Of a stretch of 64,000 nucleotides of DNA, positions 51,523 through 53,692 are shown in pieces; within the stretch, counting starts at the first letter, position 1, and every line of letters starts with the position of its first letter. This DNA is from Modestobacter marinus (GTDB lineage: Bacteria; Actinomycetota; Actinomycetes; Mycobacteriales; Geodermatophilaceae), in NCBI RefSeq assembly GCF_011758655.1, contig NZ_JAAMPA010000003.1, forward strand, positions 1-64,000, read 5' to 3'. The position numbers were made by a program, and so were the translations under genes. The notes below the pieces were generated by a model. That model had not been told where the DNA came from. It did no database searches and saw only the letters and a program-made list of their open reading frames with translations.

Positions 51523-51578
51523 GGACCCTCCTGCCCCCCACCGCTCGCAGGCTCGCGGCGGGCCCCTGCAGGAGGGCC
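51523..51578. repeat. Structured 3' element, copy A (after mec)
   Basis: Five bases after the mec stop, a stem CCCTCCTGC / GCAGGAGGG closes a 33-base loop (51535-51567). The loop is identical to that of copy B at 52963-53018, while the stem differs by compensating base changes. It may be a terminator-like, processing or regulatory RNA element, or a mobile palindrome. Confidence 0.75.
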
Positions 51579-51685
51579 GGGCGGCTGACGGAATCGTTGG
51601 CTGTCCGGCGACGTTCCCCCCAGCAGTCGTCACTGCGCGCTCTGCGCGCGACCCCTGTCACCCCGCGAGAAGGAGTTCCCACGTC

Positions 51686-51964
51686 ATGGCCATCGAGGTC
51701 CGCATCCCGACCATCCTGCGCACCCACACGGGCGGCAACAAGACCGTCCAGGGCAACGGCGACACGCTCGGCGCGCTGGTCGACGACATCGACAGCCAGC
51801 ACCCCGGCATCAAGGGCCGCCTGGTGACCGACGAGGGCAAGCTGCACCGCTTCGTGAACGTCTACGTCAACGACGAGGACGTGCGCTTCACCGGTGCGCT
51901 GGACACCTCGGTCAAGGACGGCGACTCGGTCACGATCCTGCCCGCCGTCGCCGGCGGCTGCTGA
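51686..51964 (+). CDS. cysO: CysO-like sulfur carrier protein with C-terminal GGC
   Basis: This is a 92-residue ubiquitin-like (MoaD/ThiS) protein. [34 protein letters not shown] and [14 protein letters not shown] closely follow M. tuberculosis CysO (Rv1335), which carries sulfur as a C-terminal thiocarboxylate for CysM. Unlike that protein, which ends in Gly-Gly, this one has an extra encoded Cys: ...VAGGC-stop (TGC TGA). Mec would have to remove it before activation. AAGGAG precedes the ATG by ten bases. Confidence 0.93.
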
Positions 51965-52007
51965 CCCGGAGCCTCCCCGCCCGGCACCGCAACTCCAGGA
52001 GACCCGC

Positions 52008-52958
52008 ATGGCCCGCTTCGCCTCCCTCGTCGACTCGCTCGGCAACACCCCGCTGGTGGGGCTGCCGGCGCTGTCGCCCACCCCCGACGTCCGGTTGTGG
52101 GCCAAGCTCGAGGACCACAACCCCACCGGTTCGATCAAGGACCGGGCCGCCATCGCGATGGTGGAGGCGGCGGAGAAGGAGGGGCGGCTGCAGCCGGGCA
52201 GCACGATCCTGGAGCCGACCAGCGGCAACACCGGCATCTCGCTGGCCATGGTCGCCCGGCAGCGCGGCTACCAGCTCATCTGCGTGATGCCGGAGAACAC
52301 CTCCATCGAGCGGCGCCAGCTGCTGGAGATGTACGGCGCGCGGATCATCAGCTCCCCGGCCGCCGGCGGCAGCAACCAGGCCGTCGCCGTCGCCAAGGGG
52401 CTGGCCGCCGAGCACGACGACTGGGTGATGCTCTACCAGTACGGCAACCCGGCCAACGCCGAGGCGCACTACAGCGGCACCGGCCCGGAGATCCTGGCCG
52501 ACATGCCCTCGATCACCCACTTCGTGGCCGGGCTGGGCACCACCGGCACGCTGATGGGCGTCTCCCGGTACCTGCGGGAGAAGAAGCCCGACGTCCAGGT
52601 CATCGCCGCCGAGCCGCGCTACGGCGAGCTCGTCTACGGCCTGCGCAACATCGACGAGGGGTTCATCCCCGAGCTCTACGACGCCGACCTGCTGGACTCG
52701 CGGTTCTCCGTCGGGCCGGACGACGCGATCCACCGCACCCGGCAGCTCGTCGAGCGCGAGGGCATCTTCGCCGGCATCTCGACCGGGGCGATCCTGCACG
52801 CGGCCCTCGGCGTCGCCGACAAGGAGGTCGCGGCCGGCCGCAAGGCCGACATCGTCTTCATCGTCTGCGACGGCGGGTGGAAGTACCTGTCGACCGGGGC
52901 CTACGCCGGCACGCTCGAGGAGGCCAGCGCCGCGCTCGAAGGCCAGCTGTGGGCGTGA
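52008..52958 (+). CDS. cysM: CysO-dependent cysteine synthase CysM
   Basis: This is a 316-residue PLP enzyme. The PLP lysine is Lys44 ([12 protein letters not shown]), with [15 protein letters not shown], the [10 protein letters not shown] phosphate loop and [12 protein letters not shown]. It uses O-phosphoserine and CysO thiocarboxylate to form CysO-Cys, which Mec then cleaves to cysteine. CAGGAG precedes the ATG. SerB for phosphoserine turnover lies 5 kb upstream. A copy of the structured repeat follows the stop. Confidence 0.95.
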
Positions 52959-53692
52959 GCAAGGACCACCTCGCCCCCCACCGCTCGCAGGCTCGCGGCG
53001 GGCCCCTGCGAGGCGGCCGCTCCCACACGACACCGGGCGGTGGCCTCCTGCTGGAGGCGCGGGGACTGCTGTTCGACAACGACGGGGTGCTCGTCGACTC
53101 CGAGCCCAGCGTGGTGCGGTCCTGGTCGCGCTGGGCGGTCGACTCCGGGCTGGACCCGGCCGAGGTGCTGGCCGCGGTGCCCGGACGCCGGGCCGCCGAC
53201 ACGGTCGCGGTGTTCGTCAAGCCCGAGGACGTGGCCCGGTCGACCGAGCTGATCACCCGCTACGAGCTGGAGGACGTCGCCGGCACGGTCGCCGTCCCCG
53301 GCGTCCGGGACCTCGTCGCCCAGCTCGGCGACGTCCCCTGGGCCGTGGTCACCTCCGGCGTCCGTGAGCTCGCCACCGCGAGGCTGCGCGCCGCCGGTGT
53401 CCCGGTGCCCGAGGTCGTGGTGACCGCCGAGGACGTCGTCGAGGGCAAGCCCCACCCCGAGCCGTACCTGACCGGCGCGGGCCGGCTCGGTGTCCCCCCG
53501 GGTGACCTGATCGTGCTCGAGGACAGCCCGAGCGGGGTCAGCGCGGGGCTGGCGGCCGGCGCCACCGTGCTGGGCATCGGCCGGACGGCGCTGGACAGCG
53601 ACGCGCCCGCCGTCGTCCGGGACCTGACCGGCGCCCGCTGGACCCCCGGCGGGCTGCTGCTGCCGGACGCCGCGCTGCTGCGTCGCCCCTGA
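52955..53692 (+). CDS. HAD-family hydrolase (start uncertain)
   Basis: This is a haloacid-dehalogenase-type phosphatase: nucleophile motif [26 protein letters not shown] (Ser/Thr motif), [10 protein letters not shown] (Lys) and [17 protein letters not shown] (acidic motif). It resembles sugar phosphatases of the YfbT/GPP type. The only usual start codon in frame before the domain is GTG at 52955, overlapping the cysM stop. That would make the first 25 or so residues come from the structured repeat (52963-53018). The real start may instead be a CTG near 53050. Confidence 0.75.
52963..53018. repeat. Structured 3' element, copy B (after cysM)
   Basis: It is placed five bases after the cysM stop, exactly as copy A is after mec. 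The 33-base loop (52975-53007) is identical to copy A. Stem arms GGACCACCTCGC / GCGAGGCGGCC differ from copy A at four positions per arm; three of the four pairs remain complementary. Confidence 0.75.

Follow-up and report, generated by a model that had tools for sequence, protein, structure and literature searches.

The window analysed here is a stretch of 64,000 nucleotides (positions 1-64,000, forward strand, of contig NZ_JAAMPA010000003.1 in assembly GCF_011758655.1) from the 5.1-Mb genome of Modestobacter marinus. It includes a set of genes comprising mec (Prok-JAB), a ThiS/MoaD-like gene, cysM (PALP) and a HAD hydrolase gene; the ThiS/MoaD-like gene between mec and cysM is presumably cysO. 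Two 56-base elements, each reading GGACC...GGCC on the + strand, that of the gene whose stop precedes it, lie exactly where the first-pass annotation had placed them. Element 1 (51523-51578, covariance model score 87.7 bits) follows mec, whose TGA stop is at 51516-51518, and element 2 (52963-53018, 81.2 bits) follows cysM, whose TGA is at 52956-52958. Each begins 4 bases past the TGA, so the placement directly behind the two stop codons stands.

Each element forms a hairpin of two helices, one inside the other. In element 1 the 5′ arm of the outer helix, P1 (51523-51534, with a bulged A at 51525), pairs with a 3′ arm at 51568-51578, and the 5′ arm of the inner helix, P2 (51537-51544), pairs with 51555-51562, with a conserved A.C at 51540/51559 that reads as U.G on the other strand. 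The arms of P2 in element 2 are 52977-52984 and 52995-53002. The two elements differ at six positions, among them three compensated pairs (T-A to C-G, C-G to T-A and T-A to C-G) and one lost pair (C-G to A.C), all as first described. The same description gave them an identical 33-base loop; the identity holds and extends by four bases to an uninterrupted run of 37 (51533-51569 and 52973-53009), but this is not a loop, since it contains P2. Element 2 is followed at 53019-53034 (+) by GCTCCCACACGACACC, which by eye may be a decayed form of the 16-base family tail GTTCCAGCACGTCACC.

Between element 1 and the MoaD-like gene is a GGAAT-N18-GTT motif (51590-51615). Such a motif precedes cysO-cysM in 66 of 70 relatives (N18 in 62, N19 in four) and, as we read it, fits the consensus of SigR/SigH-type promoters; element 1 therefore stands between the mec stop and a predicted stress promoter.

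A 20-base core of the element, allowing up to three mismatches, has three matches in the window against 0.17 expected, and 65 places in the whole genome against seven for a reversed control pattern. Chance is excluded as the source of the core matches. The possible third, diverged copy proposed at 41399-41443 did not hold up as a structured member: with filters off the model gives 8.9 bits (E = 4.9) at 41389-41429, which is chance level. It is possibly a decayed remnant at best, because its core is three mismatches off the pattern and the GG of its GGTCC begins 4 bases past a TGA. Elsewhere in the window, at 23355-23394, a perfect GC-rich palindrome, GGGCCCCGGTGC...GCACCGGGGCCC, has weak model scores on both strands (19.0 and 17.0 bits); it is possibly a loop-less relative or an ordinary hairpin.

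Searches of whole genomes used the covariance model (R1) with a match threshold of E <= 0.001. The M. marinus genome has 131 matches among 150 scored candidates. Matches occur in all 23 members of the genus (M. marinus included), whereas 16 genomes taken from the order's other families have none. Across the Geodermatophilaceae 102 of 112 genomes match, or 91 of the 96 good genomes, with 46 candidates scored per genome; the ten negative ones are G039 and all nine genomes of genera g22, g23 and g24. Of 397 genomes drawn evenly across the order, 79 match. Five of these lie outside the family (G164, G173, G248, G225 and G349), with one or two matches each, which may reflect transfer or contamination. 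The exact core pattern occurs in at least 80 loci of 117 stretches from named genomes, and among the matches listed each of the 80 carries the name Geodermatophilus, Blastococcus, Modestobacter, Trujillonella or Geodermatophilaceae. Because detection depends on the hairpin, the counts miss decayed copies, and sites called empty may hold remnants; by eye, G050 looks like such a case.

Some genomes are copy-poor, with 1 match in G067, 2 in G055, 5 in G114, 7 in G045 and 14 in G059. In genera g18 and g19, G039, G067, G055 and G045 (0, 1, 2 and 7 matches) stand beside congeners with at least 46 scored candidates. Their low numbers mean either loss or that the element was never gained, and such neighbours are useful for finding whatever moves it. 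Plasmids gave only four weak partial matches (E 0.2-0.6), none covering 80%, and phages gave no match to the elements.

For the structure, 68 core places were found in the M. marinus genome, of which 56 were listed and 51 aligned, each read on the strand opposite the gene. The structure counted has 20 pairs and runs from P1, where a single base is bulged, through an asymmetric internal loop to P2 and a small tip. Pairing holds in 93.5% of 991 pair cells over the 51 copies. Double changes affect 12 pairs, where shuffled alignments give 5.8, and 76 cells, where they give 21.6; none of 500 shuffles reaches these values. Sliding the partners by one to three columns lowers pairing to 48-62%, a control that is biased towards the counted structure because this was drawn from the consensus. 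RNAalifold, unaided, finds 13 pairs, 10 of them with double changes. Both helices covary, so the conserved 'loop' is itself paired, and the stem covariation first noticed between two copies is seen across copies genome-wide. We left the conserved A.C/G.U pair in P2 out of the independent evidence, as it probably goes back to a single inherited character.

To assess position, genes were called by a simple codon-based method over the 1.12 Mb that surround the M. marinus copies. Exactly 100 of the 131 copies begin 0-5 bases past a stop codon in the sense direction (78 at a distance of 4, ten at 2, five at 0, four at 1 and three at 5), whereas random intergenic placement in the same regions gives 2.0% of 167,056. 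At distance 4 the stop is TGA in 78 of 78 copies, and at distance 2 it is TAG in eight of ten. Among the remaining 31 copies, five have on their GGCC side a convergent gene whose stop is 0-4 bases away; three of the 131 are inside called genes. The P1 rule was passed by 127 of the 131, and the 111 with both ends clear were used for a flank profile, which reads CTGAnGAA ahead of GGACC. In named loci, a stop trinucleotide in any reading frame lies at 0-5 bases in 101 of 125 copies.

The neighbour downstream is irrelevant and the stop codon decisive: the next gene is convergent for 39 copies and co-directional for 61, against 344 and 694 for all gene ends (p = 0.22). Ten upstream proteins include, as judged by eye, topoisomerase, UppS, RpoZ, Fpg/Nei and MurA; no functional theme is evident among them.

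That the repeat spreads, as the first-pass annotation had suggested, is borne out by near-identical copies behind unrelated genes. In M. marinus 46 pairs of copies of equal length differ at no more than four positions. The flanks of the 25 pairs examined are mostly at chance identity, and one pair is a local tandem duplication. The copies at C1:579090 and C1:2311490 are alike at 54 of 56 hairpin bases and 15 of 16 tail bases, and are unrelated beyond. The tail GTTCCAGCACGTCACC can be recognised (at least 10 of 16 bases) in 40 of 333 copies, where chance would give 0.8, and its conservation ends at base 16-17. At the mec site of genome G096 one element has inserted, inverted, inside an older one, leaving both old arms in place (L208, 2877-2973). 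The repeat is mobile and non-autonomous, as follows from the near-identical copies with unrelated flanks, the full and empty sites described below, the nested inverted copy and the sharp end of the tail. A second lead (TGAAGAAG-tagga-GGACC) precedes some copies, and a truncated second copy follows some. At C2:342618-342776 of M. marinus (L015) two elements form a tandem duplication of about 94 bases with no adjoining stop codon. No clean target-site duplication was seen on comparing full and empty mec and cysM sites by eye, the flanks there being strongly diverged.

The mec and cysM sites were compared in 70 genomes, the 30 best cysM matches and 40 chosen from the 112, mostly on long contigs. 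The orthologous site is full in 40 of the 70 at mec and in 17 at cysM. M. marinus is full at both, and its close relatives G021, G018, G005, G001 and G013 are empty at both. On a cysM gene tree at least 16 changes are needed at the mec site and at least 17 at the cysM site, on the understanding that support for the tree is poor (of its 67 inner branches, 10 are starred) and that a site negative by the model may still contain a decayed copy. In genomes lacking the element, cysM overlaps the following gene or nearly does so; elsewhere the element is tolerated between them. In the element-free outgroup g24, GGAATC lies 3-4 bases past the mec stop, and this is the promoter-like motif found behind the element elsewhere.

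The mec site holds several subtypes of the element. One P1 variant, CCTCCTGC, accounts for 18 of the 41 hits at mec but for only 16 of the 256 copies at other sites, the latter a count that includes the mec element of M. marinus (p = 4e-9), and this excess means that the variant descended with the site across genera; the element is old there. In 16 genomes with CCTCCTGC the arms are 96.6% alike between genera and the next 40 bases 33.0%; selecting genomes by this motif inflates the first figure, and only its contrast with the flank counts. This persistence argues for maintenance in place, beyond any selection acting during transposition. Since one stem variant has persisted at mec across genera, the hairpin probably also serves the host.

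We looked for the enzyme responsible in three families. The Y1 transposase domain (Y1_Tnp, PF01797) is found in none of the 112 Geodermatophilaceae genomes, M. marinus included, at E <= 0.001, and the positive control matches five of 14 named genomes. A living RAYT is thereby refuted as the mover, unless it is a diverged Y1 enzyme flanked by elements. Reverse transcriptase (RVT_1, 49 of 112 genomes) was rejected: it is absent from the copy-rich G004 and G014 and present in the copy-less G105, G109, G110 and G112. IS110 (74 of 112) was rejected on the same grounds, being absent from the copy-rich G013, G014 and G020 and present in the copy-less G039. M. marinus itself has two reverse-transcriptase genes (C3:347514-348206 and C1:253935-254585).

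The hairpin family appears to be undescribed in the Geodermatophilaceae. None of 4227 Rfam families reaches its gathering score over the whole window, none overlaps either element at E <= 5 within 40900-53600, and the open-access literature gave no description of such a repeat in the family; this fits the remark that no family with such a loop was known. The nearest likeness is to REP elements of the GTAG and CGTC families, which, as PMC3733652 has it, are short mismatched palindromes in many copies, mostly behind genes, that vary in stem and loop and form dimers and clusters; a dedicated transposase is likewise lacking in the CGTC families. The main text of that paper does not contain the words actinobacteria, Geodermatophilus, Blastococcus, Modestobacter or Frankia. 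Our elements differ in being a two-storey 56-base hairpin with a 16-base tail and a near-fixed distance to the stop, and CGTC occurs only within the far tail. MITEs share small size, lack of autonomy, mobility, foldability and variable copy number. The elements may differ from MITEs in that terminal inverted repeats shared with a resident IS did not turn up, the three enzyme families being what was covered, and that a target duplication was not seen by eye. Their ends are also asymmetric, a lead of GAAGG and a tail of CGTCACC that by eye are complementary only in TGACG/CGTCA. MIRU, from another actinobacterial family, sit at stop/start junctions (DTGA) of neighbouring genes and are direct repeats with reading frames. 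They are like our elements in their position at stop codons and, unlike them, are not known as covarying hairpins. Integron attC sites closely follow stop codons too, and act as a folded bottom strand; our elements, unlike attC, stand singly behind chromosomal housekeeping genes and not in cassette arrays.

Taken together, the observations are best explained, in our judgement with good probability, by a dispersed, non-autonomous mobile hairpin repeat of the Geodermatophilaceae that most likely also serves the host as an mRNA 3′ end. A true REP element moved by a RAYT (the Y1 tyrosine transposase) since lost or unrecognised would share the palindrome, the high copy number outside genes (more than 100), the position at gene ends, the mismatched hairpin and the variation in copy number among species, and REP-like families lacking a transposase of their own have precedent (PMC3733652). 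Against it stand the lack of PF01797 throughout the family, a head of GAAGGACC that is neither GTAG nor CGTC, and a two-storey stem longer than the 8-9 bp (CGTC) or 5-13 bp (GTAG) reported in PMC3733652, and we regard this explanation as quite unlikely. The elements act like REP or MITE sequences and fail the RAYT-REP features tested, so we do not count them as a REP member. A site acting at the DNA level, as a cruciform or protein-binding site in chromosome organisation unrelated to transcription, would fit the palindrome, foldable on both strands, and its high copy number; since chromosome organisation does not require a start 0-5 bases past a stop codon, we hold this to be very unlikely.

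The remaining alternatives concern RNA. The first-pass annotation had offered either an RNA motif or a spreading cruciform DNA repeat; the spreading, the gene-end preference and the stem covariation are all found, so that neither of the outcomes it had named as refuting came about, and the element may act as RNA or as DNA. A structured regulatory motif of mRNA 3′ ends (protein-binding or sRNA-like), immobile now, old and vertically inherited, would account for the CCTCCTGC variant kept at mec across genera, but not for differing subtypes and a nested insertion at that one site, near-identical copies behind unrelated genes, or species with 0 to 7 copies beside copy-rich ones; it is unlikely. 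An intrinsic terminator family, spread by duplication and kept for ending transcripts, possibly antisense or convergent ones on the strand opposite the gene, is a doubtful but more serious contender. It would suit a strong GC-rich hairpin directly behind stop codons, and the strand opposite the gene has 35% T (315 of 888) in the 8 bases past the hairpin. Wobble pairs in P1 bear on the same strand: they number 6 on the gene strand and 25 on the opposite strand in M. marinus (p = 0.0009), 12 and 15 in relatives (p = 0.70) and 6 and 15 in named loci (p = 0.08), and 24 and 54 when pooled (p = 0.0009; 353 of 358 unique elements passed the P1 rule). Judged from the sequences, this is moderate evidence that the strand opposite the gene is the folding strand. 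Folding energies were rejected as proof of strand: in 120 of 123 copies the opposite strand folds more stably, but shuffling single nucleotides gives the same tendency (95%), and the energies are therefore no strand evidence. On the gene strand only 97 of 888 bases past the hairpin are T, short of a U-run, the terminator scan calls none at either element, convergent or last-in-row genes are not preferred, and the element is tolerated between cysM and a following gene packed closely against it. An mRNA 3′-end hairpin is favoured because the element appears to be maintained in place at mec and a plain terminator is not favoured.

For the mobile repeat with a host role we propose the following course. 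The unit is a two-storey hairpin of about 56 bases, GGACC-P1-P2-GGCC with a bulged A in P1, preceded by a short GAA lead and in more intact copies followed by the 16-base tail. It would insert about one base past stop codons, above all CTGA, and mostly in the sense of the gene. Movement is probably in trans, by an enzyme that recognises a folded single strand, as with REP and IS200/IS605, and the mover would be something other than any detectable Y1 transposase. After insertion, pairing is kept by compensatory change. Most likely the hairpin would then supply the upstream mRNA with a ready-made 3′ end that holds off 3′ exonucleases and sets the gene apart from whatever lies downstream. A bolder version, offered tentatively, is that the element targets stop codons as such: landing one base past CTGA in gene sense, it would bring its own folded 3′ end and so give the gene a new 3′ untranslated region without breaking it, its mover being a novel enzyme, not of the Y1 type, that works on a single strand in folded form, possibly the one opposite the gene.

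A hairpin without an Rfam entry thus stands behind many genes across the whole family Geodermatophilaceae. The missing REP transposase bears on the mobility of REP families that lack one. Should the position reflect targeting, this would be a transposition system that spares its host by choosing stop codons; if it reflects function, the repeat would be a mobile source of mRNA 3′ ends. Natural pairs of full and empty sites at the same gene allow a direct test of what a 3′ hairpin does to expression.
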